In this document: positions 7,091-49,863 of the stretch, one piece after another
Position numbering within the stretch: the stretch's first letter is position 1
How the letters are laid out: each line of letters opens with the position of its first letter
Source: Asterias amurensis
Lineage: Eukaryota > Echinodermata > Asteroidea > Forcipulatida > Asteriidae
Assembly: GCF_032118995.1 (NCBI RefSeq)
Contig: NC_092659.1
Location: forward strand, 9,279,177 to 9,343,176
DNA length: 64,000 nt
Direction of reading: 5' to 3'
The notes under the pieces: generated by a model
What the model saw: the letters and a program-made list of their open reading frames with translations, nothing else
What the model was told of the DNA's origin: nothing
Databases searched by the model: none
Made by a program: the position numbers and the translations under genes

Positions 7091-8054
7091 ATAAATAAAT
7101 ACATGAATATGGATATAATATGTACTATGAGAGCACTATAAAAAGAAGTTTGTACACAGTTGCTCACAGTTTGCCGGGTCACGTTGGTGGCCGTCACAAC
7201 GAGGTGCGACACAGGTTGAGGGCGTTTTCTGATGTTATGCGATATGGAACTGAAAATAAGAGGACTCTAACGGGATTGGGACTTGAGTCAGAGTCTACCG
7301 ACACCGGCAGTTCAAACGCGGTAGTTATTCTGCTGAAAAAAGATTCGTAGACTTGCCTAATCCCTCTGGATATGTTACACTGTCGACCTGTGCTAACACA
7401 ATCTAAACCGAGATTAATCTTATAAGGACTTTGGATGAGCATGGAGGAATACATTAAGTCCTCCTTGGGATGGTTCCGTATCCATAGACTTTTATAGGAT
7501 GAATTGAATCCATCCTAAATTAGAACGAGTTATTTTACTCGTCCTAACTCGAGAAACCGGCTGCAGAGGTATAAGAAAGGGCAGATAAGGGCAGAGGAAA
7601 ATATGTCCACCGGAGAATCTGTCTCCCACATGGGAAACTAACTCGGGTTGAGCATGGATGTAGAAACCTCAATGGGTTGAGGGAGGACGATTCAAAAGAA
7701 TGTTGTACTACAATAGGGAGCTTTCGTAAGGAGACAGAAGGGGCGAGGAGACGGTAACAAATTATAATCGTATTTTTTTTATCTTTAGAAGATAAGGCCA
7801 CTAGCAACAAGTGGTGTGTTCTACCTTCTTTCTCACGTGGTGCTATTCTAGCTGCATGGATGGGTGAACTCTAACCAAGTTACCGCACTAAACAGAGCGC
7901 CCTCTGTAGATATTGACCAAAATTCAAAGAGCTTGTCAAAAAATGACTAAGCACCACAAGTTTATGCTTACGAGGTTTGTGGTGACCAGCCAAAATACAG
8001 ATGTAAAACATGTGTCTGGTTTAATGCTTATTGTTTGGTTAGCATGTTAAGCAA
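7091..8054. other. Non-coding, nothing recognised
   Basis: Short open frames at 7,120-7,350 (plus) and 7,544-7,810 (minus) have no recognisable domain and I treat them as chance. A weak match exists between 7,255-7,310 and 36,925-36,975, consistent with the unit A/unit D relationship. Confidence 0.4.
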
Positions 8055-8444
8055 TTAAAGGCACTGGCACTGTCGGTAATTGTCGAAGACCAATCTTCTC
8101 ACTTGGTGTATCTCAACATTATGCATAAAATAACAAACCTGTCAAATTTTGAGCTCAATTGGTCGTTGAAGTTGCGAGATAACTACGAAAGAAAAACACC
8201 CTTGTCACACAAAGTTGTGTGCTTTCAGATGCTTGATTTCGATTCCTCAAAATCTAAATCTGAGGTCTCGAAATCAAATTCGTAGAAAATTACTTCTTTC
8301 TCGAAAACTATGTCACTTCAGAGGGAGCCATTTCTTACAATGTTATATATCAATCAACCTCTCCTCTCCCCATTACTCGTTACCAAGTAAGGTTTTATAC
8401 TAATAATTATTTTGAGTAATTACCTATAGTGTCCACTGCCTTTA
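8055..8444 (-). mobile_element. 380-bp TTAA MITE (AAAGGCAGTGGACAC family), copy 1
   Basis: Full-length copy starting TTAAAGGCACTGGCAC and ending CACTGCCTTTAA. The centre holds a smaller palindrome around GAGGTCTCGAAATC. TTAA at both ends suggests a piggyBac/Kolobok-type target site. Confidence 0.8.
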
Positions 8445-9184
8445 ACAATGGTCAAGCAGCTCCATTTAAATCAAGCTCTGTTTAGAGTTCATCAAGTCCA
8501 GTGTATACACATGATTGAGTAATTAAGTGTCGTGCGTTGCAGTTGCCAGTGGTTCCTAATAATTTTTGACATTTTAATTATGCTCAATAATTTCACGGTG
8601 GATTTAAAGTTAAATTGTTAAATTATGTACTCTCTTTTAAATCTAGAGTATGCAGCTATTTTTTAAGATGTTATTTTGTTTTATTCACCAAAGAAGTTAA
8701 AATTAATGTTTACATCGATTGAGTTTCCATGATAATTCCATGAGGGTATGCCCCACAGCAAATAAAATGCAATTTACAAGCTGTGCTATTATAATATAGT
8801 TATTAGAGTTTACAATAGTGGACAAGCTTTCCGTTTTATAAAAATGTTAACTAATAGTAGGTATCGTAACGTCATACGTTATCGACCCTCATTCGAACCC
8901 CAACTTTGATTCCCGTTTACAGCGAGATTGTGCAAGCTGCACCGGTGAAAGAAGCTATGCAGTTTACTCACGGTCTGTATTTTCATCAGGCTTAATCATG
9001 CTGAGAATAAAGTTTCCTGTCGTTGGTTATGCTCCAACATTTGTATAAAAAAATGATTGATTTTTGGTACAAATCACTAGTGCATTATTATGCCAACATT
9101 TAAATGCGTCAAAGAAACATCATCCAACCTCGAAAGTTCAAAACAAAATTACTATCTGCTAGATTGAGTTTCATTCTGCTTTAG
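8445..9184. other. Non-coding; part of the duplicated TRIM unit
   Basis: About 8,555-8,890 is paralogous to 23,150-23,470 (shared words such as CTCAATAATTTCACGGT and AGTATGCA). No gene. Confidence 0.5.
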
Positions 9185-10813: not shown

Positions 10814-11265
10814 CTGAACAGTACGCACATGTCTGTAGGTATGTCATGTCAATAGGTGGCGCGCTAGCGTTTCCGCTGTTTCCAATGGCACGTTTCAACT
10901 AAAATCCTACATTATTAAGCATGATTATATCGAATTTTCGGAAGAATTATTAGCAGTTCATTCAATTGCTTATAATTATTTATCAGGTGACTATGTTTCT
11001 TTTAAATAAATCGTTGCATGATTTTTGTGTACACATATGAAAGTAATCAACGGATTCAATGTGGATCAATAGTTAAGTAGGTTTTGTAATGGCTTCATCT
11101 ACCGTTGACAATTGATGCATTTGTACACAAAGTAAGCAAGAAGAGATTAGTCCTGCCCCTTTCTAACCGAATCACTGCCCCTTGATTGAAACCCCTATAT
11201 GCGTGTGGTATGGTCCAACTTAAGACAGCAATGCCTATATGAGCTGGCCGGGGTGTATGGAGTGG
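10814..11265. repeat. Paralogous 3'-flank block of TRIM units
   Basis: Nearly identical to 23,490-23,936 and, inverted, to parts of 49,864-51,110; a diverged remnant is near 41,800-41,880. It includes TAGGTATGTCATGTCAATAG and GGTGTATGGAGTGG. It marks the junction between neighbouring TRIM units. Confidence 0.75.
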
Positions 11266-11649
11266 TTAAAGGCAGTGGACACTATTGGTAATTACTCAAA
11301 ATAGTTATTAGCATAAAACCTTTGTTGGTAACTAGTAATGGGGAGAGGTTGATGGTATAAACATTGTGAGAAACGGCTCCCTCTGAAGTGCCATAGTTTT
11401 CGAGAAAGAAGTAAATTTCCACGAATTTGATTTCGAGACCTCAGATTTAGAACTTGAGGTCTCGAAATCAACCATCTAAACGCACACAACTTCGTGTGAC
11501 AAGGGCGTTTTTTTCTTTCATTATTATCTCGCAAGTCTGATGACCGATTGAGCTCAAATTTTCACAGGTTTGTTATTTTATGCATATGTTGAGATACACC
11601 AACTGTAAAGGCTAGACTTTGACAATTACCAAGTGTCCACTGCCTTTAA
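11266..11649 (+). mobile_element. 380-bp TTAA MITE, copy 2
   Basis: Complete copy from TTAAAGGCAGTGGACAC to GTCCACTGCCTTTAA, inserted in the 3'-flank block of unit B at the same position as a MITE in unit E and next to a different MITE in unit C. Confidence 0.85.
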
Positions 11650-12116
11650 GACAATGACCATAACTCAATGTCAGTACGTGCTGACAGAGTTTGTAGTCTT
11701 AAAATAACTGAACAATGGAGCTCTGAGTTCCCTCTACTCTTAGCGACCTCACATCCCACCCCATTTTGATTGGTTAAACGGCATTAGCGGAAATTAATTA
11801 ATGTATAATAGATGTTAAATTTGCATCGGGGAAAAGAATATTATTTTAGTTTTTTACCTAAACACCGATGTGTGTTAGCACTGTAATTAATTAATTAATT
11901 CATGATTCATCAATGTCAACGCGAAAGTCAATTATTAAAATTTCACGGAACGATATGCCGGTTTTGAATGAGAGGGTTGTTCATGGATTTGTTCGAATGA
12001 TAAATTATTCACAATCTTGGGTATGATTGAGTCTCTCCAATAATTATTATTGTCTAACTTTGTGACTTGTAATTGTCTTAAACATGTTTCATTCTCGACC
12101 ATTACTTCATTGACAC
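11650..12116 (-). other. 3' flank of TRIM gene B
   Basis: AT-rich flank, paralogous to 24,326-24,430 and 25,000-25,166. No canonical AATAAA is obvious close to the stop codon on the minus strand. Confidence 0.4.
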
Positions 12117-14048
12117 TCACACGCGATGCATGATCTTGACCGAGTCCCTATCAGCCACGATGACGTCACCGGTAGGAGTAAACGTCATGTCTATAGGATT
12201 GTACAATCCACGAGTTACACAGCCGATGTGTTCACCTGATGCATGGTAATGATGTATCTCACTGGTTCCAAGATTACCGTCATGAAGGGACACATAGATG
12301 TTTCCAGCATCGTCGCAGCAAACACCAGCAGGTTTTACAGGTTTGCCGTCAATGGAGGTACTGATATTGAACACCTCGTTTCCCATGAAATCCAGACAAA
12401 CCAGTTTCATCTTGTCGTAGATTGTGAAGATCAGTCGCTCCTTGCTGCTTACAGATAGGCTGCACACATGGTCTATTTCGGCATGATGTATTGTAGAAAT
12501 GGTGGATCCATCCATATTATGGAGAGATATTACTTTTCTCATACAGTCAGCCACTGCAATCCGATCTTTCTCGTCCAAAGCGATTCCACGGAGTAGACTC
12601 TCTGACTGCCGATCGACTTGATTCTGTGAGGGTCTGAACTGACGAATGTATCGCAGTTCTCTATCATAAATCTTTATATCCGGTCCGTCAGTAACCAGAA
12701 GCAGGTCATCAGAGGTCACGGCAACACCGTAAGGTTGTTTTAGTTTACCATCCTCTGTTCCACTTTGAACACCAGTGGACTTGTAGAAACCCTTTGATGT
12801 AAATGTGGACAATAGCCAACTTTCTATATCAGTAACGGCAATGTCACCATTGCTAAAAAAAGCAACGTCCGATGCCATCTTGAACTCCCCCTCATCTTCC
12901 CCGTCTTTACCAAACTTTGTCTTTTCCTCCCACTTTTCTTCCTCTAGTATTTCACCGATATCCGCATCAGTTACGACATCATGACCTTTGAACCCGATGA
13001 ATGACTTGCAATGCTGCACTGTTTGAAACTGTAGCTCTTTGTGGAATGTCAAGTTGTGCATAACCTTTGGCTTGAGGTCCAGCAGCTCAAAATTATCAGC
13101 ATGTTGCATCAAGTCCTTGACTGAAGCTACGATCTGCTCTGCACGGCTCATCTTATTGTGATTGCTACTCAGTTTGCTATTAAAATCCTCACCCCTTTCT
13201 TGACTGATTTGAGAGACTTTTGCTTGGAGGAGGCGAGATGCGTTTCTTATCTTGGTGACTTCCTCTTCCTCCTTAGCCAAAATATCTCGAAGAGCCCGGT
13301 CGACTTTGAGTTGTAATCTACGCTGTGAGTGTTTGATAGAGTCATCCACTTTTTGAAATTGCTCGCGACATTCATCAAACTTCATCAATGCCTCTTCAAC
13401 AGCTTGACGATAAGATCGAATGGAATCATTGATTTCAGAGAGAACGTGGTTTTGTGCTCGGTGATCGTACGCCACACATTTTAGACACACAAGTAAATCA
13501 CACGTGTCGCAATAAAAACACAGGTCCTGGTCAGTGTGTTTCCGGCACTTTGGTGATTCCAGTTTGCCCTTGTTCTCGGGTCGCGCATTTGACGAGCCGA
13601 CATTAACGATTTGATGATGCCTGTTCATTTTTAATTTCGCGTGGTATTCCTGACATGTCTTGCACAAGTTTGCATCACAGTCAACACACCGAGAGACGGG
13701 TTCAAGACCTTCGTCGCATCCTTCGCAAGTCGAGACAGGAGGGTTGATGTCCTCCTCCGGACCTTCAAGATGGATGACGTCATCAATAAGCGAGCTCAAG
13801 AAAAAACAGTTAAAAAGAGCCGACACTCCCTTTTCTGGGATTGAAGTTTTCTCTCTACACACTGGACAAATTATACACTCCTCTTTTTGGTCATATTTGG
13901 CTACAAGTTCCTGAAGACATTTCAGGCAGAAGCTGTGCTGACAGTCCAGTATTTTCGGATCGGTAAACCGAGTCAGGCAGACTGGGCATTCGATGTGTAT
14001 ATGTCTAATCTTGCAAGTGGTCTCAGTGGGTGGTGCAGCTTCGGCCAT
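12117..14048 (-). CDS. TRIM-NHL protein (RING, two B-boxes, coiled coil, NHL propeller), gene B
   Basis: Predicted E3 ubiquitin ligase of 643 aa, encoded in one exon. RING at residues 21-64 with C21, C24, C36, H38, C41, C44, C61, C64 (C3HC4, complete). B-box 1 at about 108-145, B-box 2 at about 168-201 (C168, H171, C180, C183, C188, C191, H196, H201). Coiled coil about 205-320, then a linker from KSFIGFKG to EEEKWE, then six NHL-type blades to the C-terminus. No filamin domain separates coiled coil and propeller, unlike TRIM2/3/71; the layout is closer to TRIM56. I start at the ATG of MAEAAPP (good context, CAAAATGGC) and not at the ATG 48 nt upstream, because TTTTACTTCAG at 14,076-14,086 is a 3' splice site and the upstream codons are intronic. 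Substrate unknown; the propeller probably binds it. Paralogous to C, D and E. Confidence 0.93.
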   Translation of the reverse strand: MAEAAPPTETTCKIRHIHIECPVCLTRFTDPKILDCQHSFCLKCLQELVAKYDQKEECIICPVCREKTSIPEKGVSALFNCFFLSSLIDDVIHLEGPEEDINPPVSTCEGCDEGLEPVSRCVDCDANLCKTCQEYHAKLKMNRHHQIVNVGSSNARPENKGKLESPKCRKHTDQDLCFYCDTCDLLVCLKCVAYDHRAQNHVLSEINDSIRSYRQAVEEALMKFDECREQFQKVDDSIKHSQRRLQLKVDRALRDILAKEEEEVTKIRNASRLLQAKVSQISQERGEDFNSKLSSNHNKMSRAEQIVASVKDLMQHADNFELLDLKPKVMHNLTFHKELQFQTVQHCKSFIGFKGHDVVTDADIGEILEEEKWEEKTKFGKDGEDEGEFKMASDVAFFSNGDIAVTDIESWLLSTFTSKGFYKSTGVQSGTEDGKLKQPYGVAVTSDDLLLVTDGPDIKIYDRELRYIRQFRPSQNQVDRQSESLLRGIALDEKDRIAVADCMRKVISLHNMDGSTISTIHHAEIDHVCSLSVSSKERLIFTIYDKMKLVCLDFMGNEVFNISTSIDGKPVKPAGVCCDDAGNIYVSLHDGNLGTSEIHHYHASGEHIGCVTRGLYNPIDMTFTPTGDVIVADRDSVKIMHRV

Positions 14049-14201
14049 TTTGATGAGATGGCACAATCCTGTAACCTGAAGTAAAACGAATGTCATTTCT
14101 GTTAGTTCCTACAATCAGTGAGTGCAATAATTGATGGATATTTTAAGACACTAGGTGGCAGCAGACTCACATGGGAAACTCGTTTGCACTCGAACAAAGG
14201 T

Positions 14202-17785: not shown

Positions 17786-18252
17786 ATAGTTCCTTTATAA
17801 CCATTGAATGAAAGCTCTTTGAAAACAGAGGATCCTTGTTACTATATATTGCTTCCAAAGAGGGACCAATCGACCAGAAATATGTGGATTATAAGCTAGA
17901 CGTTGAATCGATGTATCCACACAAACTAGAGCGACTCTATCGTTCGTAGAATAAACCTGAATACGGGACTTGAAAAAGCATGCTGTTTTATCGAATTTCT
18001 ATTTTATATGAAAAATGCTCTTTACGACGATGTCAGTAAATAATTTCAAGCTTTTCAATTTATGATAAACAACGAAACAAATGACCCAGTTAGGAAAATG
18101 ATTTTTGTTTTTTTAGCTTAGTGATACAATTTTTGTGTAGCGTTTTTCTATAGTGATTTAAAGGGCGGGAAAATGGTTCACTGCGGGGTTTGTGCTGCGG
18201 ATGTACTGTGTGTATTAGCAAGTTTTGTCCAAAGTGGTTGGCTTTCCATGAT
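17786..18252. other. Distal unit B sequence
   Basis: Paralogous to about 31,110-31,590 in unit C, with no gene. It ends at the insertion point of the giant foldback. Confidence 0.5.
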
Positions 18253-21200
18253 AGACCGGCAGCCCAGAGCACTTTGGTTAAAGGAACGAGGTACCAATAT
18301 TTGACTACGGGAACGTTTAGTGGATAACCTGACATAATCAGATATGGATGTCTGCCGGGGACCCCCCGCTGCATGTGGCGCATGGACCCCAACAGAGAGG
18401 CAAAATAATGGGCTGAATCAAACATTCTAGGAACCACATGAAACCAAGTGGAAATGGTCATTACCATGATACTTAGTAAACAAAATCAACCGCCAGACAA
18501 ATTTTCTGCTGCATTAGGCCTGCCAGACACCCCCTTCCCCAAATATTTAGTGTACAAACCTATGGGTTGAAAATTACCAGTTGTCAAATTACCTCAGATT
18601 TACATGAAACTTTGTTTAACTGTTCCACTATGGCTAAAATGAACACAAACCAACAATTAAATCCATACTCCATGTCGTTTCTGAGATACAGCCTCTTACA
18701 ATATACTAAAATCTCCCCCTTTTGGAGCTCCGACCCCGGCCGACACCGCGCGTCGTGGTGGTATTCTTTCAAACGTTAAGCCCGTAATTTAATAACGACA
18801 CCAGCTTTGCGGCTGAAAGGTGTATACTATTAAAGTTATGGCCCTTGAGTCATAATTTGGCTGCATTGGGCCTACCAGACACCCCCACCCCCGGGGTTCA
18901 ACATCGGAGGAACGACCTAAAACCAAGTTGAAATTACCAAGGCCTTTTGCACTATTCTTAACACAAGACATTATCAGGCGCCGGACAAATGTTTTGCCCG
19001 GCAGACACCTCCCTTACCCGGGTTAAACAAAGGAATCACCTGAAACCAAGTAATGACCAAACACACTATTCTTTGACGTCCAGTATCAATCACCACCAGA
19101 CGAACGTTTTGCTGCATTTGGCCCGGCAGACACAGCTCCCTTCCCCGGGTTAAACATCAGAGGAACCACTGAAACCAAGTTGAAATGTGACCAATACAAT
19201 ATTATTCTTAATACAAGTATCAACTGCCAGATATCAACTGCCAGGCGAAAGTTTTGTTGCATTTGGCCCGGCAGACAACTCCCCCCCCCCCGGGTTAAAC
19301 ATCAGAGGAACCCCCTGAAACCAAGTTGAAATGACCAATAACAATATTCTTAATACAAGTATCAACTGCCAGACAACAGTTTTGCTGCATTGGGCCCGGC
19401 AGACAACTCCCCTCCCCCTGGGTTAAACATCAGAGGAACCCCCTGAAACCAAGTTGAAATGACCAATAACAATATTCTTAGTATCAACTGCCAGAAAAAA
19501 GTTTGGCTGCATTGGGCCCGGTAGACAACTCCCCCCCCCCCCCCCCGGGTTAAACGTCAAATGAACCACCTGAAACCAAGTTGAAAAGGCCAATAACAAT
19601 ATTCTTAATAAAAGTATCAACTGCCACTCGAAAGTTTTGCTGCATTGGGCCCGGCAGACAACCCCACTCCCTCGGGTTTTAGAAGAACCGCCTAAAGCTA
19701 AGTTGAAATAACCAATAACAATATTCTTAATACAAACGGAAGTATCAACCGCCAGACATTTTTATGATTCTTCATTGGGCCCGGCAGACACCTCCCCAAC
19801 CCCGGGGTTAAACTTCGAAGGACCGACCTAAAACCAAGTTGAAATTACCAATAACAATATTCTTAAACCAAGGGGGTGGGGGTGTTTGGCGTGCCCAATG
19901 CACCAATTTTTTGTCTGGCGTGTTATGATACTTGTATTAAGAAGAGTGTAAATTGGTCATTTCAACTTGGTTTGAAGTGGTTTCTCTGATGTTAACCCGG
20001 GGAGGGAAGGTGTCTGCCGGGCCCAATGCAGCAAAACTTTCGTCTGGTGATTGGTACTGGTATTAAGAATATTGTTATTGGTCATTTCAACTTGGTTTCA
20101 GGTGGTTCCTCTGATGCGTAAAACCCGGTGTGGCGGTTTCAGTTTTCCGCCGTATTCAGTTTTCCGGGACTCAGTAAAGAATAACAGTATTGACTTCTTT
20201 CGGTTGCTGCGCGCAGGTGTCGCATGACGCTATGTTACCGTATTTGGTCATTCGGAAAACTGAACACGGCGGAAAGTTGAAACCGCCACACCGGGGGAGT
20301 GGGGTTGTCTGCCGGGCCCAATGCAGCAAAACTGTTGTATGGCAGTTGATAATGGTGGTAAGAATATTGTTATTCGTCATTTCAACTTAATTTCAGGTGG
20401 TTCCTTTGATGTTTAACCCAGGGGGAGGGGAGGTGTCTGCCGGGCCCAATGCAGCAAAACTGTTGTCTGGCAGCATGGTATTAAGAATATTATTGTTATT
20501 GGTCATTTAAACTTAATTTCAGGTGGTCCTTTGATGTTTACCCCGGGGACGGGGAGGTGTCTGTCGGGCCCAATGCAGCAATACTGTTGTCTGGCAGTTG
20601 ATACTTGTATTAAGAATATTGTTATTGGTCATTTCAACTTAATTTCAGGTGGTACCTTTGATGTTTACCCCGGGGGAGGGGAGGTGTCTGTCGGGCCCAA
20701 TGCAGCAAAACTGTTGTCTGGCAGTTGATACTTGTATTACGAATATTGTTTTCGGTCATTTCAACTTAATTTCAGGTGGTTCCTTTGATGTTTAACCCGG
20801 GGGAGGGGGTGTCTGCCGGGCCCAATGCAGCAAAACTGCTGTCTGGCAGTTGATACTTGTATTAAGAATATTGTTATTGGTCATTTCAACTTAATTTCAC
20901 TTGGGGCCTTTGATGTTTACCCCGGGGGAGGGGAGGTGTCTGCCGGGCCCAATGCAGCAGTTGATACTGGTATTTAGAATATTATTATTGGTCATTTCAA
21001 CTTAAATTCAGGTGGTTCCTTTGATGTTTACCCCGGGGGAGGGGAGGCATCTGTCGGTCCCAATGCAGCAAAACTGCTGTCTGGCAGTTGATACTTGTAT
21101 TAAGAATATTGCTATTGGTCATTTCAACTTAAATTCAGGTGGTTCCTTTGATGTTTACCCCGGGGGAGGGGAGGCATCTGTCGGGCCCAATGCAGCAAAA

Positions 21201-22074
21201 CTGCTGTCTGGCAGTTGATACTTGTATTAAGATTATTGCTATTGGTCATTTCAACTTGGTTTCAGGTGGTTCCTTTAATGTTTAACCCGGGAGGGTATAT
21301 GTGTCTGTCGGGCCGCGCCCAATGCAGCAAAACATTGTCTGGCGGCTGATATTGTCTTCTGTTAAGAATTGTGCATTAGGACTATTGGTAATTTCAATTT
21401 GGTTTTAGGTTGTTCCTCCGATGTTTTACCCCGGGGGTGGGGGTGTCTGTCAGGCCCAGTGCAGCCAAATTATGAATCAAGGGCCACAACTTAAATAGCA
21501 TACAATTTTTAGCCACACAGCTGGTGTCGTTATTAAATTACGGGCTCTTAACGTTTGAAAAGAATATCACCACGACGCGCGGTCGTTCGGGGGCGGAGCG
21601 CCAAAAGGGGGAGATTTTAGCATTTTTTAAGAGGCTGTATCTCGGAAACGGTATGGAGTATGGATTTAATTTTTGGTTTGTGTTCATTTTAGCCATAGTA
21701 GAACAGTTAAACAAAGTTTCATGTAAATCTGAGGTAATTTGACAACTGGTGAATTTCAACCCATAGGTTTGTACACTAAATATTTGGGGGAGGGGGTGTC
21801 TGGCAGGCCTAATGCAGCAGACAATTTGTCTGGCGGTTGATATTTTTTACTAAGCATGATGTTAATGAACATTTCCACTTGGTTTCATTTGGTACCTAGA
21901 ATGTTTGATTCAGCCCATTATTTTGCCTCTTTGTTGGGGGTCCACGTGCTACACACAGCGGGGGGTCCCTGGCAGACATCCATATCTGACTATGTCAGGT
22001 TATCCACTAAATGTTCCTGTACTCAAATATTGGTACCTCGTTCCTTTAACCAAAGTGCTCTGGGCTGCCGCTCT
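18253..22074. mobile_element. Giant modular foldback element with inverted arrays of a 125-bp repeat
   Basis: Inverted arms of about 1.6 and 2.2 kb meet near 19,870. The outer ends are CGGCAGCCCAGAGCACTTTG and its complement. Inside come an outer unique domain, a module with CAGATTTACATGAAAC (18,590-18,780, inverse at 21,540-21,750), and then an array of about 9-11 units per arm, each about 125 bp, holding GTCTGCCGGGCCCAATGCAG, GTATTAAGAATATTGTTATT and TCATTTCAACTT. Unit C has the empty site (CTTTCCATGAGAGC at about 31,589-31,602). No transposase ORF. The design resembles the modular TU foldback elements described from sea urchin and Drosophila FB elements. Confidence 0.85.
20127..20292. mobile_element. 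Small foldback nested in the giant element
   Basis: GGTGTGGCGGTTTCAGTTTT and its complement near GAAACCGCCACACC bound about 165 bp and interrupt one 125-bp repeat of the right arm, so it arrived later. Confidence 0.75.
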
Positions 22075-23489
22075 ATGAGGGCCTTATTTCAAAGAGCTCT
22101 TGAAGCAAAAATGTGTGCCTAATAACATTTTGATTTGCAAAACTATAAGCAGGATACCAGTCAGTAAAACATGGTACATGTGACATAGTATTTAAGCTGC
22201 AAAGTTATACTTAATTCTGGTATATAGGGCCTAAGCATCGTGTCTTTTTGTGATTTAGCTGTTTTGTGCTGAAGCGTCTGTATGGATGTAATACAATAAC
22301 TAATCTTGTAGTCTTGGACATGACGCTTCATGCTTTAATTGCTTCTCAACATACTGCTAGATAGGGTGAATGATAAACAAGGTATGCACCCATTCTGAGT
22401 ATTCTGAAAGAGTAGCGATGGTTTCAGGAATGTTTCGTCCGAATGAAAACAGGGGCAGTATGTAAGGCTATTTTTTCCCTTCAAAAGCGTTTGCCCAAAG
22501 GGTTCATCCTTAAATCATATCAGTTCAATCTTTTTACATTAGTTTATGTTTAACAAAAAAGGCACACATTTTCTGTGTTACCTCAAACAAAATCGCGTTG
22601 GAGACATGGCCATCTAAGCCACTCTTTGTACAATTAAGAAAGAATCGAACCATGCTTAAGATGCTTTTCAATCTGTGAAGATTTCATTTCAAAAAGTGGT
22701 AAAGTTTGCGAAAATCGGCAGTAGTTATATCCATGCAGGGAGAATGTAGTAACGTTTCGCAGGCCTTTTTTCTGGGGTTGTGTGTGGCTGTGGGGGGGGG
22801 GGGGTCAACAGATATATAACCGCAGTGTTTTAAAGTAAAATGTTCATCAAAATACATTTTATCCAAAGCTGATGTACTTCTTACCAAATTTGTAATGCCA
22901 CCAGTTTTCAGAGTCATTATCAAACGTGTACAGACCTTTTCATCTACCTTGTGCTTGATAATGTTAAGGTGGAACTACAGGAAAGTATACAGTTTTCTAC
23001 TAACTACCAAACACAAGTAATATGTATATCATTTAAACCAAATATAATAAAATTACTTTCATCATTGATTGAGAAATTTTGCTTGAATAATGAATCCACG
23101 ACAGGACAGCCAACAAACTTACGCTTATACAAGACTATCACTGTTAATTTCTGACATTTTAATTGTGCTCAATAATTTCACGGTAGATTTAAAGTTAAAA
23201 TGTTTCATTTTCTACTATATATCAAATCTAGAGTATGCAATTATTTTTTAAGATGTTATTTTGTTATATTCACCAGAGAAGTTAAATTTACTGTTTACAT
23301 CGATTGCATTTTTATGATAGTTCCATAAGGGTAGGCCCCACAGCAAATAAAACGCATTTTACAAGCTTTGCTATTATAATATAGTTATTAGAGTTTAAAA
23401 TAGTCAACAGGCTTTCCATGCAAAGTTTTAAATCCTACTTAACAAGCTTTCCGTTTAATACAAATTGTAACTAAATACAAGCATACTGA
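22075..23489. other. Distal unit B sequence, no gene
   Basis: The first part is paralogous to unit C (31,610-32,000). About 22,690-22,990 matches 43,500-43,760 inverted (unit E), and 23,150-23,470 matches 8,555-8,890 (unit A). A G-run lies near 22,793-22,804. Short frames have no recognisable domain. Confidence 0.5.
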
Positions 23490-25166: not shown

Positions 25167-27104
25167 TCACACGCGATGCATGATCTTGACCGATTGAAGA
25201 TCAGCCACGATTAGGTCACCGGTAGGAGTAAACGTCATGCCAAAAGAATTGTACAAGCCACGAGCTACACAGCCGATGTGCTCACCTAATGCGTGATAAT
25301 GATGTATCTCACACGTTCCCACACTACCGTCACCATGAACAGACACGTAGATGTCTCCAGCATCGTCGCAGCACACACCAGCAGGTTTTACAGGTTTGCC
25401 GTCAATGGAGGTGCTGATATTGAACACCTCCTTTCCCATGAAATCCAAACAAACTAATTTCATCTTGTAGTAGTTTGTGAAGATCAGTCGATCCTTGCTG
25501 CTTACAGATAGCCCGGACAGGTTTTCTATTTCGGCATGATGTTTTATAGAAATGGTAGATCCATCCATATTATGGAGAGATATAACCTTTCTCTTACAGT
25601 CAGCCACTGCAATCCGATCTTTCTCGTCCACTGCGATTCTACTGAGTAGACTCTCTGACTGCCCCTCGACTTCATTCTGCGAGGGTATGAACTGACGAAT
25701 GTATCTCAGTTCTCTATCATAAACCTTTACATCCAGTCCGTCAGTAGCCAGAAGCAGGTCATCAGAGGTCACACAAACACCGTTAGGACAATATAGTTGA
25801 CCATCCTCTGTTTCACTTTGAACACCAGTAGATTTATAACAATCCTTTGATGTAAATGTGGATAATAGACCCCTCCCTATATCAGTAACGACAATGTCAC
25901 CATTGCTAAAGCAAGCAACGTCTGACGCAACCTTGAACTCCCCCTCACCTTCCCCTTCTTTACCAAACTCTGTCTTCACCTCCCACTTCTCTTCCTCTAG
26001 TATTTCACCGATATCCGCATCAGTTACGACATCATGACCTTTGAACCCGATGAATGACTTGCTATGCTGCACTGTTTGAAACTGGAGCTCTTTGTGGAAT
26101 GTCAAGTTGTGCATAACCTTTGGCTTGAGGTCCAGCAGCTCAAAGTCATCAGCTTTCTGCATCAACTCATTGACTGAAGCTACGATCTGCTCTGCACGGC
26201 TCATCTTATCGTGATTGCTGCTCCGTATGCTGCCAAATTCCTCACCTCTTTCTTGACCGATTTGAGTGACTCTTTGATGAAGGAGGCGAGATGCATTTCT
26301 AATCTTAGTGATTTCCTCTTCCTCCTTAACCAAAATATCTTGAAGAGCCTGATCGACCATGAGTTGCAATCTACGCTGAGAGTGTTTGATAGAGTCATCC
26401 ACTTTTTGGAATTGCTTGCGACATTCATCAAATTTCATCAATGCCTCTTCAACAGCTTGACGGTAAGATGTTATGGAATCATTGATTTCAGAGAGATTGT
26501 GGTTCGACGCTCTGTGATCAAACACCACACAAGCATGGCACGCAAGTAAATCGCAAGTTTCGCAGTAAAAACGCAGTTCCTGGTCAGTGTGTTTCCGGCA
26601 CTTTGGAGATTGAGTTTTGTCCGTGTCTTTGGGTCGCTCATTTGATGAGGCGAAGGCATCAACGATTTGATGATGCCTGTTCATTTTTAGTTTCGCGTGG
26701 TGTTCCAGACATGCAGTGCAGAGTTTTGCATCACAGTCAACACACCGTGAAACGGCTTTAAGACCTTCGTCGCATCCTTCACAAGTCCAGACAGGAGGGT
26801 TGATGTCATCCTCCGGACCTTCCAGATTGATGACGTCATCGATAAGCGAGCTCAAGAAAAAACAGTTAAGAAGAGCCGACACTCCCTTTTCTGGGATGGA
26901 AGTTTTCTCTCTACACACTGGGCAAATTATAAAATCCTTATTTTGATCCTGTTTGTCTACAAGTACCTGAAGACATTTTAAGCAGAAGCTGTGCTGACAG
27001 TCCAGGATTTTCGGATCGTTGAACCGACTCAGGCAGATTGGGCATTCGATGTGTACATGTCTAATCTTGCAAGTGGTCTCAGTGGGTGGTGCAGCTTCAG
27101 CCAT
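25167..27104 (-). CDS. TRIM-NHL protein, gene C
   Basis: Predicted E3 ubiquitin ligase, 645 aa, one coding exon. RING residues C21 to C64 (C3HC4) are all present; B-box 1 (CEGCDEGLKAVSRCVDC...), B-box 2 (CRKHTDQELRFYCETC...), coiled coil, invariant linker and six NHL blades follow as in gene B. The start is the ATG of MAEAAPP; the acceptor TTTTACTTCAG at 27,132 lies 27 nt before it and makes the longer frame (to 27,152) intronic. The B-box 1/B-box 2 spacer is two residues longer than in gene B. The gene faces away from D across the lectin gene. The reading frame is intact from start to stop. Confidence 0.93.
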   Translation of the reverse strand: MAEAAPPTETTCKIRHVHIECPICLSRFNDPKILDCQHSFCLKCLQVLVDKQDQNKDFIICPVCREKTSIPEKGVSALLNCFFLSSLIDDVINLEGPEDDINPPVWTCEGCDEGLKAVSRCVDCDAKLCTACLEHHAKLKMNRHHQIVDAFASSNERPKDTDKTQSPKCRKHTDQELRFYCETCDLLACHACVVFDHRASNHNLSEINDSITSYRQAVEEALMKFDECRKQFQKVDDSIKHSQRRLQLMVDQALQDILVKEEEEITKIRNASRLLHQRVTQIGQERGEEFGSIRSSNHDKMSRAEQIVASVNELMQKADDFELLDLKPKVMHNLTFHKELQFQTVQHSKSFIGFKGHDVVTDADIGEILEEEKWEVKTEFGKEGEGEGEFKVASDVACFSNGDIVVTDIGRGLLSTFTSKDCYKSTGVQSETEDGQLYCPNGVCVTSDDLLLATDGLDVKVYDRELRYIRQFIPSQNEVEGQSESLLSRIAVDEKDRIAVADCKRKVISLHNMDGSTISIKHHAEIENLSGLSVSSKDRLIFTNYYKMKLVCLDFMGKEVFNISTSIDGKPVKPAGVCCDDAGDIYVSVHGDGSVGTCEIHHYHALGEHIGCVARGLYNSFGMTFTPTGDLIVADLQSVKIMHRV

Positions 27105-27497
27105 CTTGGTGAGAACGCACAATCCTGTAACCTGAAGTAAAACGAATGTCATTCCCGTTAGTTCCTACAATCAGTGAGTGCAATAATTGATGGATATTTT
27201 AAGACACTAGGTGGCAGCAGACTCACATGGGAAACTCGTTTGCACTCGAAAAAGGTGCGCATGCCCAGAATTTTGTAAACAATCGACTGATTACTGGAGA
27301 ACTTGTGTCATTTGTTTGCCACACGAACAACAGGTTTCTTAAGTACAATTTTGATGTTTTGAAGTTACCTTCAAAATATAAATATTATGCTGTTTTTCTC
27401 GATATTAAAGAAAAACTGGAAAAACAAAGCAAGATATAATTGTTTAACCTTTCAAAATATTGTTTACAATTATTCTTGAATGACCTTTTTGAACTAT

Positions 27498-31030: not shown

Positions 31031-31930
31031 TCATGTATAAGTGTAACCCTATCTCAAGTATGGCGTAGGGCATACCGTTTTGCCACTGTGATTTGTCACG
31101 TGCCTTGGTAAATAGTTCCTTTATAAATTATGAAGGAAAGTTCTTTGAAAACAAAGGATTCGTGTTACTGTTGCTTCCAAAGAGGTACAAATCAACCAGA
31201 AAAAAATGTGGATTATAAACTAGTAGACATTGTGTCGATTTATCCACAAAAACTATAACGACTCTATCATTTGTAGAGTAAACCTGAATAAATACAAACC
31301 AGGACTCGAAAAAGCATGCTGTGTTATCGACTTTTTATTCTGTGTGAAAAATGCCCTTTACCGCGATGTCAGTAAATAATTTCAAGCCTTTCGATGATAA
31401 CATGAAACAAAATGCCAAAGGAGCAAAATGATTTTTGTTTTTTAGCTAAGTGATACTTTTTTTTGTGAAACATTTTTTTGTAGTGATTAAAAAGGGCGGG
31501 AAAACGGTTCACTGCAGGTTGTGTGCTGGCAGTGTATGTCAGCCTATTAGCAAGTTTTGTCCAAGAGTTGTCCGATGTGTTGGGCTTTCCATGAGAGCAT
31601 ATAGTTTCAAAGAGCTCTTGAAGCAGAAGTTTGTACTTAATAACACTTTGACTTGCAAAACTATAAGCAGGATGCCAGCAAGTCAAATAATGGTACATAT
31701 GGCTCAGTATTTAAGCTGCAAAGTTATACCTAACTCTGGTTTTCATCTTTTTCTTGTTTGTGATTAGCTGTTTTGTGCTGAAGCATCTGTATGAATGTAA
31801 CAATTGTAGTATATGGCGAGACGCTTAATGCCCGCTTTAATTGCTTCTCAACACCCAGGAGTAAATGTGTACTCCTTTATAGCGTGAATGATAGGCAAGG
31901 TAGCATCCATTTGGTGCTGCGTACTCTGAG
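31031..31930. other. Distal unit C sequence, no gene
   Basis: Paralogous to unit B on both sides of the giant foldback (17,786-18,252 and 22,085-22,390), and so gives its empty site. Short frames look like chance. Confidence 0.55.
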
Positions 31931-34256: not shown

Positions 34257-35007
34257 TCAGGTGTTGAAATAGTAACAAGAATTGTCTATGTCAAAAACCT
34301 CGTTATCAGCTCCCTCACGAGTGACGTTGTTGAGCTGGCAGATCTTCTCTTTGCTTCTTCGTCCAAGCCGTACATTGAAGGAGCGGCACCGAGGCTCATC
34401 ACGGCACGCTGAGCCACACGCAACCACGCCCTTGATCGGTAACTCCTTGATGACATGACCGGTCAGGCAATGGGATGCGAAGCGGCCGTTGGTGTCTGCT
34501 TGCAGACAGTACGGACTGACTGGCGGGATGGTTGGTGCGACGGCAGGGCGCTGACAGACCACGTAGCTCGGATAGTTACAGGAGCCATCATTCCAGCTAC
34601 CATCACATGGAGGATTCATCAATACACAATCTTCACCGTTCTGTTTGGTGGGTTCTCCTGGATACCAGTTGAAGAAACTGCACTCTCCCTCACCAGGCTG
34701 CACCCACTTGCCTTCTACCTCCCTGTCAGTGCAGCCAACCCAGACGTTGCCACTTTCAACGTTACTGACCATGTCCCAGATAAGCTGATGCTCTGTGAGT
34801 GACGTATATAGGCACTGCAACGTGGCCACTCATAACGGCACAGGTGATGAATGCGGTATCAAAAGTAATTTTCTCCATAACTGACTTGTAGCATGACTCG
34901 CCAAATAACACCCACTCAGATGGGCAGATCAAACCTTCATTGCAGCTCGATACCACGAAGTTAAGGGCAACTGCGAATACTAAGACTAAAGTCTTCATGA
35001 TTGACAT
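34257..35007 (-). CDS. Secreted C-type lectin with C-terminal PAN/apple-like domain
   Basis: On the minus strand a signal peptide (MKTLVLVFAVALNFVVSS, ATG at 34,998; another ATG at 35,007) is followed by a C-type lectin-like domain beginning CPSEWVLFGESCYK and ending YVVCQRP. Sugar-site motifs: EPT in place of the mannose-type EPN, and a canonical WND (GSWNDGSC). After a Thr/Pro linker comes a Cys-rich domain (HCLTGHVIKELPIKGVVACG...CRSFNV...CQLNN...CYYF) resembling PAN/apple domains. The domain is split over two frames: there is one frame change near 34,790-34,800 in the middle of the lectin domain. This may be a real lesion or an assembly error. Probable role: extracellular carbohydrate binding in immunity, inferred from family. 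Confidence 0.75.
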
Positions 35008-35437
35008 CAACACGGATACAAGAAAGATGCGACTCTCTGCTGGAGATTGACAAAATCTGAATATTATATCGGGTATACATTTCGTTATTAATACTAAACG
35101 TCTGATGTTTTCAAGTCTCTGCGTCATATTTACTACGGTGATCATATTCTGATTTTGTCTATGGAATTTCTAGTTTGTCGAGACGTTTATAGCAAAATAA
35201 ATCAATAACAGGTAGCATAATACAGACATTACGAGCAAATTTAAGTAAATGCTTTTGCAGAGGATTGTTGGTAAAGTCATCTTGTCATGCAGAGACGTAC
35301 TCAGAGTCCTTGAGTAAGAGATCCATAATATATCACCCAATACCAAGTGCTTGTGTATGAACAAACAACAACCAATACATTTCTGTAGTAAAGTTCATCT
35401 GGATAAAAGTCATTGGTTTTAACAGGCCGCACCCGGC

Positions 35438-35838
35438 TTAAAGGCTGTGGACACTATTGGTAATTACTCAAAATAATTATTAGCACAAAACCTTACTTGG
35501 TAACGAGTAATGTGGAGAGGTTGATAGCAGAACAGTTTGTGAGAAACATTTGCCTCTGAAGTTACGTAGTTCTCTAGAAAGAAGTAATTTTCCAAGAATT
35601 TGATTTAAAGACCTCAGATTTAGAATTTGATGTCTCGAAATCAAGCATCTAAAAGCACACAACTTCGTGTAAACATGGTGCGACAAGGGTGGGGTTTTTT
35701 CTTTCATTAATATCTTGCAATTTCGACAACCGATTGAGCTCAAATTTTCGCAGGTTTATTATTTTGTGTATATGTTGAGATACACCAACTGTGAAGACTA
35801 GTTTTTGACAAATTACCAATAGTGCCCAGTGTCTTTAA
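35438..35838 (+). mobile_element. 380-bp TTAA MITE, copy 4
   Basis: TTAAAGGCTGTGGACAC to GTGCCCAGTGTCTTTAA, complete but diverged; upstream of lectin 1. Confidence 0.8.
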
Positions 35839-37578: not shown

Positions 37579-37579
37579 C

Positions 37580-37958
37580 TTAAAGGCAGTGTGGACACCA
37601 TTGGTAAATACTCAAAATAATTATTAGCATAAAACATTACTTGGTATCGAGTAATGGGAGATGTCGATAGTATAAAATATTGTGAGAAACGGCTCCCTCT
37701 GAAGTAACATAGCTTTCGAGACAGAAATTTTATTTCGAGACCTCAGATTTAGAATTTGAGGTCTCGAAATTAAGCATCTGAAAGCACACAACTTGATGTG
37801 ACAGTGGTGTTTTTCTACCATTATTATCTCGCAACTTCGACCACCAATTGAGCTCAAATTTTCACAGGTTTATTATTTTATGCACATGTTGAGACACAAG
37901 TGAGAAGACTGGTCTTTCACAACTATTGACAACTACTGAAAGTGTCCAGTGTCTTTAA
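37580..37958 (+). mobile_element. 380-bp TTAA MITE, copy 5
   Basis: TTAAAGGCAGTGTGGACACC to GTCCAGTGTCTTTAA; inserted in the upstream region of gene D. Confidence 0.8.
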
Positions 37959-38171
37959 GGGAATGTGAAGGTCAGGGCCTACTTGATGACGTTGTGATGT
38001 GGGTACGCAGACGAACTACTGTCGTAAGGTACAAAGTATCATGCATCTACCAAACAAAAACAGGTTGTATTTGCATAATTTTTGTGTTATTGTTTATGTT
38101 GGGGTCACCAGGTAAATGACTGAAATCATCAAGTTCCTTAAACACATATGCGAATTGTGTAGATCATCGTA

Positions 38172-38752: not shown

Positions 38753-39445
38753 GTAGGACTTAACTTTCATTTGGAGTTCATGTTGTCCAATAACCGACAC
38801 AGATCGGACACTCTAAAACATGAGCACGATGGCTCACACAAATCAGTACTTTGTTTATGAAAAGTACCAATCCGTTTATGAAACCCGATCTGACAAGTTT
38901 ATGCTGACTCGATCTTGCATTGCAGGCAAAGTCTGAATCGCACATGGTTTACAGTTTTGAAAAAATCATTACCACGGTAAAAATCAGCTAAAAATGCAAA
39001 AATGCAAAATACAGAACTCACATTAAAATGAGTTAACATATTGGTTCTAAAGCCATCGATTTAGAAATCGGGCAATTATAAAGATCTTGTATCACAGGCA
39101 AAAGCTAAAATGCACATGGTTTACAGAAAAAAATTGTTTGTGTGATTACCCTTAGTTAAACGTTTTGTTAAAACAACTGTAGGGGAAAAGCACTGAGAAT
39201 AGTTTTTAACCTATAAGTATGTTCATTTTGGCATGAAATGACACCAGTCCTTTTTAGCGGTATTTTGGGTGGTAAGACCATATCTATATATATATTTTTT
39301 TTTTAGTGCAACTAATGTTTATCCGGTCAGAGCTGTGCGTTGATCGAAAGAGTTGCTATAAAGAGAATAGAATAGCTTCTACGTCATAATCAAACGCAGC
39401 CATTGATTGTTTAAATTAACCGAAATGACATTTGTTTTACTTCAG
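38753..39445 (+). other. Intron of TRIM gene D
   Basis: Only 693 bp between donor GTAGGACT and acceptor TTTTACTTCAG. It lacks the 120-bp block that precedes the acceptor in B, C and E. Confidence 0.65.
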
Positions 39446-39472
39446 GTTACAGGATTGCCCCTTCTCATCAAG

Positions 39473-41404
39473 ATGGCTGAAGCTGCACCACCCACTGAGA
39501 CCACTTGCAAGATTAGACATATACACATCGAATGTCCAATCTGCCTGAGTCGGTTCACCGATCCAAAAATGTTGGACTGTCAGCACAGCTTCTGCTTAAC
39601 ATGTCTTCATGATCTTGTTGACAAACAGGATCCGAAAACGGAAATTATTATATGTCCCGTCTGTAGAAAGAAAACTTTAATCCCAGACAAGGGAGTGTCG
39701 GCTCTTCTAAATTGCTTTTTCTTGAACTCACTTATTGATGACGTCATAAATCTTGAAGGTCTAAAAGTAGACACCAGCCCTCCTATCATAACTTGCCAAG
39801 GATGCGACGAAAGTCTTGAAGCCGTTTCACGGTGTGTTGACTGTGATGTGAATTTTTGCACTGCATGTCTGGAACACCACGCGAAATTAAAAAGTCACAG
39901 GCATCATCAAATCATTAATGCTGTCGGGTCGTCAAAAAAGCGACACAAAGACACGGAAAAGGACAAATCTCCAAAGTGCCGGAAACACACTGACCAGGAA
40001 CTGCGTTTTTACTGCGAAACTTGCGACTTACTTGCGTGCCATGCTTGTGTGGTGTATGATCACCGATCGTCGAAACACAATCTCTCTGAAATCAAAGATT
40101 CCATTCTATCTTTTCGTCAAGCTGTCGAAGCGGAATTGATAAAATTTGATGAATGTCGCAAGCAGTTTCAAAAAGTGGATGACTCTGTTAAACACTCGCA
40201 GCGTAGATTACAGCTCATGGTCGACCGGGCTCTTCGAGATATTGCGGCTAAGGAGAAAGAGGAAATCGCTAAAATAAGAAATGCATCTCGCCTCCTACAA
40301 AAAAGAGTCACTCAAATCGGTCAAGAAAGAGGTGAGAAATTTGTCAACATACGGAGCAGCAATTGCGATAAGATGAGCCGTGGAGAGCAGATCTTAGCTT
40401 CAGTCAACGACTTGATGCAACATGCTGATGACTTTGAGCTGCTGGACCTCAAGCCAAAGGTTATGCACAACTTGACCTTCCTCAAAGGGCTCCAGTTTCG
40501 ATCAATGCAGCGTAGCAAGTCATTTATCGGGTTCAAAGGTCATGATGTCGTAACTGATGCGGATATCGGTGAAATACTAGAAGAAGAGAAGTGGGAGGTG
40601 AAGACAGAGTTTGGTAGAAAAGGGGAAGGTAGGGGAGAATTCAAGGCTGCAATGGACGTTGCTTGTTTTAACACTGGATACTTGGTTGTTACTGATATAG
40701 AGAGAAAGCTATTAAGCACATTTACATTAAAGGGATGTTACAAATCCACAGGTGTTCAGAGCGGAACAATGGATGGTAAACTAAAACACCCTTACGGTGT
40801 TGCCGTGACCTCTGATGATCTGCTTTTGGTTACTGACGAAAAGGATGTAAAGATTTATGATAGAGAACTGGGATACATTCGTCAGTTCAGACCCTCACAG
40901 AATCAAGTCGATGGGCAGTCGGAGAGTCTACTCAGTGGAATCGCAGTGAATACGAAAGGTCAGATTGCAGTGGCTGACTGTATGAGAAAGGTTATATCTG
41001 TCCATAATATGGATGGATCTATCATTAATACTACACATCATGCCGATATAAGCAATCCATGCAGGCTGTCTGTAAGCAGCAAGGAGCGACTGATCTTCAC
41101 AAACTACCACAAGATGAAACTAGTTTGTCTGGATTTTATGGGCAACGAGGTGTTCAATATCAGCACCACTATTGGCGGCAAACCTGTAAAACCTGTCGGT
41201 GTGTGCTGCGACGATGCTGGAGACATCTACGTGTCTCTTCATTACGGTACATTGGGAGCCTGTGAGATACATCATTACGATGCATCAGGTGAGCACATCG
41301 GCCGTGTAGCTCGTGGCGTGTTTGCTTTATCCATGACGTTTACTCCCGCAGGTGACCTAATCATAGCTAGTTTTCACTCGGTCAAGATATTGCACTGCGT
41401 GTGA
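39473..41404 (+). CDS. TRIM-NHL protein, gene D
   Basis: Predicted E3 ubiquitin ligase, 643 aa, one coding exon, intact. RING C21-C64 complete (CPICLSRFTDPKMLDCQHSF...), B-box 1 (CQGCDESLEAVSRCVDC), B-box 2 (CRKHTDQELRFYCETC), coiled coil, invariant linker, six NHL blades; the last blade is a little shorter than in the others (GVFALSMTF). Start chosen at MAEAAPP (context CAAGATGG); the frame is open upstream to 39,407 but the acceptor at 39,445/39,446 lies inside that extension. It is the most divergent of the four in sequence and in upstream region, pairing with the relic unit A. Transcribed towards E. Confidence 0.93.
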   Translation: MAEAAPPTETTCKIRHIHIECPICLSRFTDPKMLDCQHSFCLTCLHDLVDKQDPKTEIIICPVCRKKTLIPDKGVSALLNCFFLNSLIDDVINLEGLKVDTSPPIITCQGCDESLEAVSRCVDCDVNFCTACLEHHAKLKSHRHHQIINAVGSSKKRHKDTEKDKSPKCRKHTDQELRFYCETCDLLACHACVVYDHRSSKHNLSEIKDSILSFRQAVEAELIKFDECRKQFQKVDDSVKHSQRRLQLMVDRALRDIAAKEKEEIAKIRNASRLLQKRVTQIGQERGEKFVNIRSSNCDKMSRGEQILASVNDLMQHADDFELLDLKPKVMHNLTFLKGLQFRSMQRSKSFIGFKGHDVVTDADIGEILEEEKWEVKTEFGRKGEGRGEFKAAMDVACFNTGYLVVTDIERKLLSTFTLKGCYKSTGVQSGTMDGKLKHPYGVAVTSDDLLLVTDEKDVKIYDRELGYIRQFRPSQNQVDGQSESLLSGIAVNTKGQIAVADCMRKVISVHNMDGSIINTTHHADISNPCRLSVSSKERLIFTNYHKMKLVCLDFMGNEVFNISTTIGGKPVKPVGVCCDDAGDIYVSLHYGTLGACEIHHYDASGEHIGRVARGVFALSMTFTPAGDLIIASFHSVKILHCV

Positions 41405-44864: not shown

Positions 44865-46699
44865 GTACGTCACTGCACTTTTACTAAGGTCTATGTAGGC
44901 CTATGTTTTTCCCAATGAACGTTAAGACAAATTATTGTTATAACCGACACTGTGCCTTGGACATTGTGAAAATTATCATTTTGGTTCACGCAAGCTGTAG
45001 GCTAGTGTTTTGTTTATGAATAGACAATGAAACCTTGTGATTAAACCTCATCTGACAAGTTGTACGAAAGCTACGGGAACCAAAAATTGTCGATGTTCTG
45101 GAATTTATATTGGTTGCCTTCAGGAAATTCAGTTATTATTGACAGTATATTGTAACGACCCCCCCCCCCCGCCCCCTAGGAGATCCGCCAGTCTAGGGAT
45201 TAAAGAAATGGCCAAACCATTACCAAAAGAAAAATGAACAATTAAGTCAATAATCTTTGGACTAGCAATCGATTCAAAAGTTTCCAGTTGTCGTCACTGT
45301 AATTTCTTAGCGACTTTTAATTCAACGAACAAAACAACCTTCAAATCTCAATTCACATAAAAACGGGAGGCAGTATGGACTTAATGTCAATGAATGTCGC
45401 TATTATGACCAAACCATTGAACCTTACAGAATAAACAGGAAAGGAACCCCAAATTCCGCCCAATGTGTCTCCTGTACATGCAGCAATGTTTTAATCATTA
45501 AATTTGGGTTAAAAGTAGGCCGAATCGGCTGTTGAATTTGGAGGGCCTAATAAAGAAGGCTGTAACACACAACAACAACTTTCCCCAGAATTAAACCCCA
45601 AAATGTTACCCTCCCGCATGTACAAAGAAAAACACTGTCGAAACCAAGGGCCCTATACTACAAAAATGTGAATAAGGCACTACAAAATGGAACTGAAACG
45701 GACTCGGGGTATAAGAAATACAAATGTAAACTTACAGAAACAAGGCTTGGCTACACTACACATCATCACCAAGTAGAGGCAAGCATGTGTCACCACATGG
45801 GATCAGAAAACCCAGCCATAAAAACACTGACACTGAATTTAGCCACTCCGGTTCCCGAGTCACAAGTCCTCAATGTGAAACTGAGCACAATGATTTAATA
45901 CCAAAACTGAAGTCAGCTGATAATGCATTCAATAGCACTAATATAAATCACAAAGCATTGGGAATTAAAAGAGGTCAGAGGCTCTTCAAACTTTCTTAGA
46001 CCCGGGTAAACACAATGCACATGTATAAGAAAGAACACTAAAGGCTCAGCTAGTGAATGGAAGTAGCTTACTAACAAAAGAAGACCTAACAAACCATGAC
46101 TCATCTGGGGCGTGGCATGCTGCATTCTTGCACACTAACCCAAGTTGTATGTTGCAATACACAAAACAAGATCTGACTAAGATCAACTGGTTAGTTTGAT
46201 AAAGGTCAAAATTCAAACAGAATTGCAATAAGTTTACAATTTAAACATGCATAAAATCCAGTTATTTGTGAGCAAAAATAACGCACATGTTGCCGTGGGT
46301 ATTAACACAGAAAAGTAACACTACTCCATCCATAAATGGTTTCTTTTTTCAGATGTAATTAAAAAAAAACTGGTTAAAATATTTAAAGAGGTTAAACAAT
46401 TTCTTATTTTGTTATTTCTTTTAATAAAGAAAAATAGCATAATAATTGTAATATTTTGAAGGCAACTTCGAAATATGAAAATTGAAGTCAAGAAACCTGT
46501 TGTTCGTCTGTCAAACAACTGGCACAAATTCCTTAGTAATCAGTCGATTGTTTACAAAATTCTGCGCATGCGCACCTTTTTTCGAGTGCAAACGAGTTTC
46601 CCATGTGAGTCTGCTGCCACCTAGTGTCTTACAATATCCATTAATTATTTCACTCACTGGTTGTAGTTACTAATGGGAATGAGATTCGTTTTACTTCAG
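44865..46699 (+). other. Intron of TRIM gene E
   Basis: Donor GTACGTCACT, acceptor ACTTCAG at 46,699. The last 130 bp (CAGTCGATTGTTTACAAAAT, GAGTCTGCTGCCACCTAGTG) match genes B and C. A C-run lies at about 45,157-45,168. Small frames at 45,668-45,999 have no motif. Confidence 0.65.
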
Positions 46700-46726
46700 G
46701 TTACAGGATTGTGCGTTCTCACCAAG

Positions 46727-49481: not shown

Positions 49482-49863
49482 TTAAAGGCACTGAACACCT
49501 CTGGTAATTGTCAAAGACCAGTCTTCTAACTTGATGTATCCCAACATATGCATAAAATAACAAATCTGTGGAAATGTTGCCTCAACTGGTCATCGAAGTT
49601 GCAAGAAAACAATGGAAGAAAAACCACTGTTGTTGCACAAACTACATGTGCTGTCAGATGCCTCATAAAAGGCTTCAGGTCTGATCCTTTTATTATTTTG
49701 GATGAAAAATTACCCCAAACACTACCTTACTTATAGAGGGAGCTGTTTCTAAAAAAAATGTTTTGGGGTCTTTGTTTCTCATCAACACCAATGCTCGTTA
49801 CCAAGTACGTTTTTTTGCTAACAAATATTTTGAGCAATTACCATTAGTGTCCAGTTCGTTTAA
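49482..49863 (-). mobile_element. 380-bp TTAA MITE, copy 6
   Basis: TTAAAGGCACTGAACACC to TGTCCAGTTCGTTTAA. In gene-sense orientation it has the same position and direction as copy 2 beside gene B. Confidence 0.75.

Follow-up and report, generated by a model that had tools for sequence, protein, structure and literature searches.

A foldback element inside a duplicated TRIM-like segment

The window (C12:9279177-9343176), by which we mean the whole 64,000-nucleotide stretch of starfish DNA that was analyzed, contains four TRIM-like open frames, at 12117 to 14108 and 25167 to 27164 on the minus strand and at 39407 to 41404 and 46667 to 48664 on the plus strand. These frames are 663 to 665 amino acids (aa) long and 83 to 88% alike in DNA and represent a local gene family; RING, B-box, and NHL matches were obtained for the first of them (12117 to 14108), the sole frame that was run. 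Two minus-strand frames encode a C-type lectin domain (53908 to 54492) and a C-type lectin domain together with a PAN domain (34257 to 34829). A dispersed repeat of ~400 bp is present in at least seven window copies, pairs of which are 66 to 89% alike (8051 to 8452, 11263 to 11656, 35437 to 35838, 37579 to 37965, 49481 to 49866, 50538 to 50906, and 52160 to 52558), and a nearly pure (TTGTTC)n hexamer array extends from 63269 to the window end at 64000. Scanning the window against Rfam and for tRNAs yielded no hit, and the phage collection that we searched gave no match.

One of the duplicated TRIM-like segments harbors a foldback element of 3,824 bp (18252 to 22075), delimited by an inverted-repeat search, its repeat units, a target site duplication (TSD), and an empty site. 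It is flanked by two copies of TGA (18249 to 18251 and 22076 to 22078), which were assigned from paired copies of the family and from the empty-site alignment. The first-pass annotation had recognized a foldback element at 18253 to 22074 with the end CGGCAG. The foldback structure stands, whereas each terminus lies one base farther out; CGGCAG is part of the end, but the TSDs of paired copies put the actual ends five bases beyond it. In the window copy and in the family, the ends read TAGA[C/G]CGGCAGCCCAGAGCACTTTG, with the family end motif also given as TAGA[C/G]CGGCAGCCC.

In each arm, a ~635-bp outer domain is followed by an array of ~125-bp units running inward. The left outer domain (18252 to 18885, plus strand), identified by inverted-repeat search and arm comparison, is of arm type A and ends in TAGAC; the right one (21440 to 22075, minus strand), identified in the same way, is of arm type B and ends in TAGAG. 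According to the tandem search and unit matches, the left array has 8 core units (18891 to 19872, minus strand) and the right array has 11 (19878 to 21434, plus strand), with a period of 127 to 128 in the tandem-repeat search of the window. The two long inverted arms proposed earlier were recovered by the inverted-repeat search as three pairs, of 364 bp at 93% complementarity (18387 to 18750 and 21576 to 21939), 162 bp at 90% (18779 to 18940 and 21385 to 21546), and 145 bp at 91% (18246 to 18390 and 21937 to 22081). They are real and far exceed chance expectation, and the window has one copy of the end 20-mer on each strand, versus none in 100 shuffles. The previous estimate of 9 to 11 units per arm is right for the right array but too high for the left, and the arms do meet near 19,870, a point now refined to 19872 to 19878. 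The outer domains, earlier described as unique, are not entirely so, since each contains one diverged unit, at 18420 to 18534 on the minus strand (74% identical to the query unit) and at 21792 to 21906 on the plus strand (77%).

The embedded outer unit agrees with the core unit at 89 of 114 aligned positions, and these positions are somewhat better conserved among core units than the others (0.90 versus 0.83, permutation P = 0.007). The longest identical run between the two is 11 bases, which is not above shuffled sequences (mean, 14.4), and single-strand folding of one unit was no better than that of shuffles (z = -0.11). The unit and the element end have only the 7-bp CCGGCAG in common; this stretch was considered as a binding site within the unit and rejected as too short to claim. 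The right array also carries a nested insertion of 172 bp (20121 to 20292), a near-perfect inverted repeat with the end CCCGGTGTGGCGGTTTCAG. It is present at >90% identity in 9 of 24 counted copies, the window's included, all of which belong to the young group described below, although one of them (L019) retains only 107 bp.

For the window copy, the empty-site test was made against a paralogous segment (31400 to 31740) that has a single TGA at ~31592 to 31594, within the paralogous unit for which an empty site had been claimed. Aligning the element's flanks to this segment gave a score of 314 when one TGA was kept, 307 when both were kept, and 299 when none was kept, which upholds that claim. 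When the join was shifted by up to 6 bases, scores ranged from 302 to 322 and in some cases exceeded 314; the empty site therefore cannot by itself pin down the exact ends, which are fixed by other copies of the family.

Family size and target site duplications

In the 491.5-Mb genome of 23 contigs, the end 20-mer has 116 exact occurrences (61 forward and 55 reverse) and 197 when up to two mismatches are allowed (96 and 101 per strand); the reversed control gave 0 in both searches. At two ends per copy, the 197 ends imply perhaps ~100 family copies, a figure that truncated copies make uncertain. We chose 23 regions (L009 to L031) in which two exact ends face each other and added L032, which covers the distal end of the L010 copy, 16 loci with unpaired ends (L033 to L048), and five pieces (L052 to L056). 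The loci read and the window together contain 68 of the 100 exact ends that were listed, out of 116 in all.

Among the 23 copies for which a single piece includes both exact ends (the window's and 22 others), 21 have identical triplets on both sides, the two without a perfect 3-bp TSD being L029 and L031. The 10.5-kb copy spanning L010 and L032 has AAA on both sides, which brings the count to 22 of 24 paired copies, and none of the 23 paired copies tested has a 4-bp TSD. The fifth end base differs between the two ends (C versus G) in 19 of 23 copies and is C at both in the remaining 4. Once 11 redundant loci had been removed, a target bias was apparent. TWA accounts for 6 of 21 TSDs (1.25 expected; P = 0.001) and, more weakly, for 7 of 43 loci (2.55 expected; P = 0.013); the middle position is A or T at 38 of 43 loci (P = 1e-4); and C lies just outside the TSD in 28 of 65 flanks (P = 8e-6). 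TAA makes up 4 of the 21 TSDs. Outside the triplet, the target showed no significant symmetry (34 matches versus 28.2 in shuffled sequences; P = 0.13).

Given the constant ends, the 3-bp TSDs, the varying number of units, the empty site, and the 116 exact ends, we are nearly certain that the element belongs to a mobile, non-autonomous family of foldback DNA transposons. The genome search for the end thus turned up what the first-pass annotation had predicted of a family, namely, full copies with a constant TSD length of 3 bp and a variable unit number (1 to 15), and its view that the element moved as one piece is borne out by the same evidence, including the 22 of 24 perfect TSDs.

Several observations were made on the assembly in passing. 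L043 (C4:2457000-2463000) and L044 (C4:2820000-2829671) carry truncated 54-bp foldback ends within segments that are 99.97% identical and that, by eye, adjoin TRIM-NHL-like frames; the segments are recent segmental duplications. Contig C23 has the best COX1 match and was taken as mitochondrial. Its COX1 has AAA where Asn is expected, ATA at Ile, and AGA at Ser, based on the conservation that we expect of this protein, as well as TGA within the frame, so it fits the echinoderm code (table 9). The remaining 22 contigs are large, and this number together with a mitochondrion would suit the chromosome count of a sea star. Two COX1 matches on C5 are nearly as good (L050, C5:658874-660214; L051, C5:675294-676634) and represent either mitochondrial DNA transferred to the nucleus or a misassembly.

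Copy-to-copy variation and a young group

Counting as a core unit any BLAST match of 46 bp or more, which makes the unit counts approximate, we found 1 to 15 units in the left arm and 2 to 14 in the right arm of 24 copies. Twelve copies form a young group (the window's, L009, L012, L014, L015, L016, L019, L021, L023, L027, L029, and L030). In the 11 others, the A arms are 97.7 to 99.0% identical to the window A arm and the B arms 98.3 to 99.1% identical to the window B arm, whereas the A and B arms inside one young copy differ by 5.9 to 8.4%. Since the two arms differ within a copy and match across copies, an element with two distinct arms must have been copied whole. The youngest copies differ from each other by only 1 to 2%, which implies recent activity of the enzyme.

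Across 152 units of the young group, the best match averaged 99.3% in other copies versus 91.5% in the unit's own copy, a comparison in which the larger pool of other copies favors the first figure. These values fit arrays that would have been inherited and then have lost or gained units, without homogenization inside each copy. The inserts of the long copies have dispersed repeats in common with one another and with the window (726 bp at 94% between L010 and L017), and repeats are likewise in common between the inserted stretches of L013 and L045 (~385 bp) and of L019, L031, and L041 (~375 bp). No middle domain common to all long copies appeared among the 45 longest matches listed.

Search for a transposase-bearing partner

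Inspection by eye of the open reading frames (ORFs) of at least 90 aa in the inserts of six long copies (L010, L011, L016, L017, L022, and L031) revealed no transposase, and the longest stop-to-stop frame across 23 copies was 99 to 185 aa. Ten ORFs from copies (seven from the six long copies, one from a piece of the unpaired-end loci, and two others) had no Pfam match at an E value of 0.1. All 16 unpaired-end loci were mapped, and no transposase of the element was recognized among the ORFs of at least 110 aa in 13 of them (L033 to L048 minus L036, L045, and L047). A Tc1-like fragment and, downstream, a LINE-like frame were noted by eye at L048.

A partner might share part of the end and then diverge. 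Patterns that break off after 19 end bases (TAGASCGGCAGCCCAGAGCB) gave 0 genome matches (control, 0), those after 14 bases (TAGASCGGCAGCCCB) gave 3 (control, 1), and those after 11 bases (TAGASCGGCAGD) gave 61 (control, 81), with no excess for any of the three. Ends leaving the arm after ~28 bases also numbered 0 for a pattern (four bases all different) that misses about two-thirds of unrelated continuations. These patterns cover breaks after 11, 14, 19, and ~28 bases; a partner with the same arm or a less similar end would escape them.

The DDE_Tnp_4 model had 76 matches in the genome, several in open frames of 480 to 700 aa, and CACTA had 4, two of which have identical scores and 755-aa open frames. 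All of these Harbinger and CACTA matches are remote from the 110 ends compared (100 among the exact matches listed, of 116, and 10 more), with none inside 30 kb and the nearest at a distance of 30 kb. Three Harbinger loci with open frames contain no CGGCAGCC on either strand and no TAGA[C/G]CGG on the given strand, and no clean ends with a 3-bp TSD could be set for them. PF07592, which we chose as a proxy model for Zator, matched neither the genome nor any of 14 controls. The related element with a transposase that the first-pass annotation had suggested looking for was thus not found among the end patterns, the copies examined, or the three Harbinger loci. Since no gene of its own was found, the enzyme of another element probably moves the foldback family.

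Candidate movers

To our knowledge, only a few superfamilies make 3-bp TSDs; the earlier judgment that the mover could not be assigned still holds but is narrowed to these. The PIF/Harbinger target is CWCTTAGWG, and we know of no PIF/Harbinger end that reads TAGA. Among the 3-bp superfamilies, PIF/Harbinger gives the best fit to the TSD bias (TWA, with C just outside), which resembles its targets but is looser; that 15 of 21 TSDs are not TWA is loose for the superfamily and counts against the assignment. The searches that turned up no transposase-bearing relative, the two of 24 paired copies with an imperfect TSD, and the nonsignificant target symmetry also weigh against it. The TSDs of PIF/Harbinger elements are described as 3 bp (PMC2213677), and the 76 DDE_Tnp_4 matches in the genome also speak for this superfamily. 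We therefore favor, with about even confidence, a PIF/Harbinger transposase acting in trans.

Under the mechanism that we propose, another element would provide a DDE transposase in trans, most likely a PIF/Harbinger one, and this enzyme would bind the foldback ends, with the arrayed units perhaps serving as putative extra sites. The element would be cut out and pasted into A+T-rich triplets, and the arrays may gain or lose units by unequal exchange or by interrupted gap repair after excision.

The same transposon could instead be moved by AcademX, CACTA (EnSpm), or, less likely, a Fot-type pogo transposase, an alternative that we regard as possible but less probable than PIF/Harbinger. CACTA and Zator elements make 3-bp TSDs, so that the family's TSD fits CACTA, and two of the four CACTA matches in the genome have 755-aa open frames and equal scores. 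However, CACTA ends begin with CACTA or CACTG, unlike TAGA[C/G]CGG; CACTA elements are not expected to favor TWA targets; and the CACTA matches are at least 30 kb from the ends compared. The TSD also fits AcademX, for which TSDs of 3 or 4 bp are described (PMC10045372). Most Fot elements have TAA TSDs and some pogo elements have terminal inverted repeats (TIRs) of 392 to 856 bp (PMC7386202), yet TAA is found in just 4 of 21 TSDs of the foldback family.

It is doubtful that the mover comes from a transposase lineage with TAGA ends that has gone unrecognized or has since died out. Such a lineage would agree with the end patterns tried, which revealed no partner, with the 99- to 185-aa longest frames of the 23 copies and the 10 ORFs lacking a Pfam match, and with long copies that, among the 45 longest matches listed, share only other dispersed repeats and no middle domain. 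The loci read, however, cover 68 of the 116 exact ends, and extinction sits poorly with youngest copies only 1 to 2% apart, whose enzyme was recently active. Still less probable is the more specific proposal of a recently active echinoderm foldback family whose TAGA[C/G]CGGCAG ends and 3-bp TSD belong to an undescribed transposase lineage and whose 125-bp units would act as oriented extra binding sites.

A one-unit search of the genome gave at least 362 matches (40 of 344 first-look candidates were scored), and 65 places among the matches listed fall into 37 clusters. The very improbable explanation that an ordinary satellite or segmental duplication formed the inverted array without transposing could draw on the 6 clusters with no listed end inside 6 kb (five on C10 and one on C17, judged against the ends among the matches listed) and on the two truncated ends in near-identical segments on C4, but 31 of 37 clusters lie inside 6 kb of a listed end (110 ends), and the constant ends, 3-bp TSDs, and empty site refute it for copies bearing TSDs. 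The clusters on C10 could be arrays that lack ends or could have ends that have mutated.

Comparison with known systems

Our searches of the foldback, TU, starfish (Asteroidea), and 3-bp-superfamily literature found no description of the family among the papers listed, although Repbase may hold it under a systematic name. The foldback element represents a new family of an already known type, the non-autonomous foldback transposon. A family of perhaps ~100 copies with 3-bp TSDs suggests that foldback architecture also arises in other transposon superfamilies of animals. In addition, the dozen young copies with differing unit numbers provide data on array change inside transposons, and the long arms are potential sites of rearrangement.

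TU of sea urchins, likewise an echinoderm element, and FB of Drosophila have modular inverted arms with an outer domain and inner tandem repeats. Both have short repeat units, and their TSDs are 8 bp (TU) and 9 bp (FB); that of Galileo is 7 bp. The likeness to TU and FB noted in the first-pass annotation is thus apt for architecture alone, with TSDs of 8 to 9 bp versus 3 bp setting them apart. Galileo, of the P superfamily, also has long TIRs with internal tandem repeats, which have been shown to carry extra transposase binding sites, but it differs in superfamily and in having a known transposase (PMC3688188). Tetris, a foldback element of Drosophila virilis, also has long TIRs, in which a terminal domain is joined by ~220-bp tandem repeats sharing a stretch with it, and the account drawn on here knows of no autonomous copy; it differs in its 8- to 10-bp TSDs, its three structurally complete copies, and its repeats, which also form satellite arrays (PMC4079207). 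MtPH-A6-4, a PIF/Harbinger subfamily of Medicago truncatula, likewise has a 3-bp TSD and tandem arrays of variable unit number, which in some elements lie on both sides in opposite orientation, although it is a plant subfamily with a 60-bp unit, TAA or TTA TSDs, the TIR motif G(N)5GTT, and a known transposase (PMC2213677). Taken together, MtPH-A6-4 is closest to the foldback family in working, while Tetris, Galileo, TU, and FB are closest in look.
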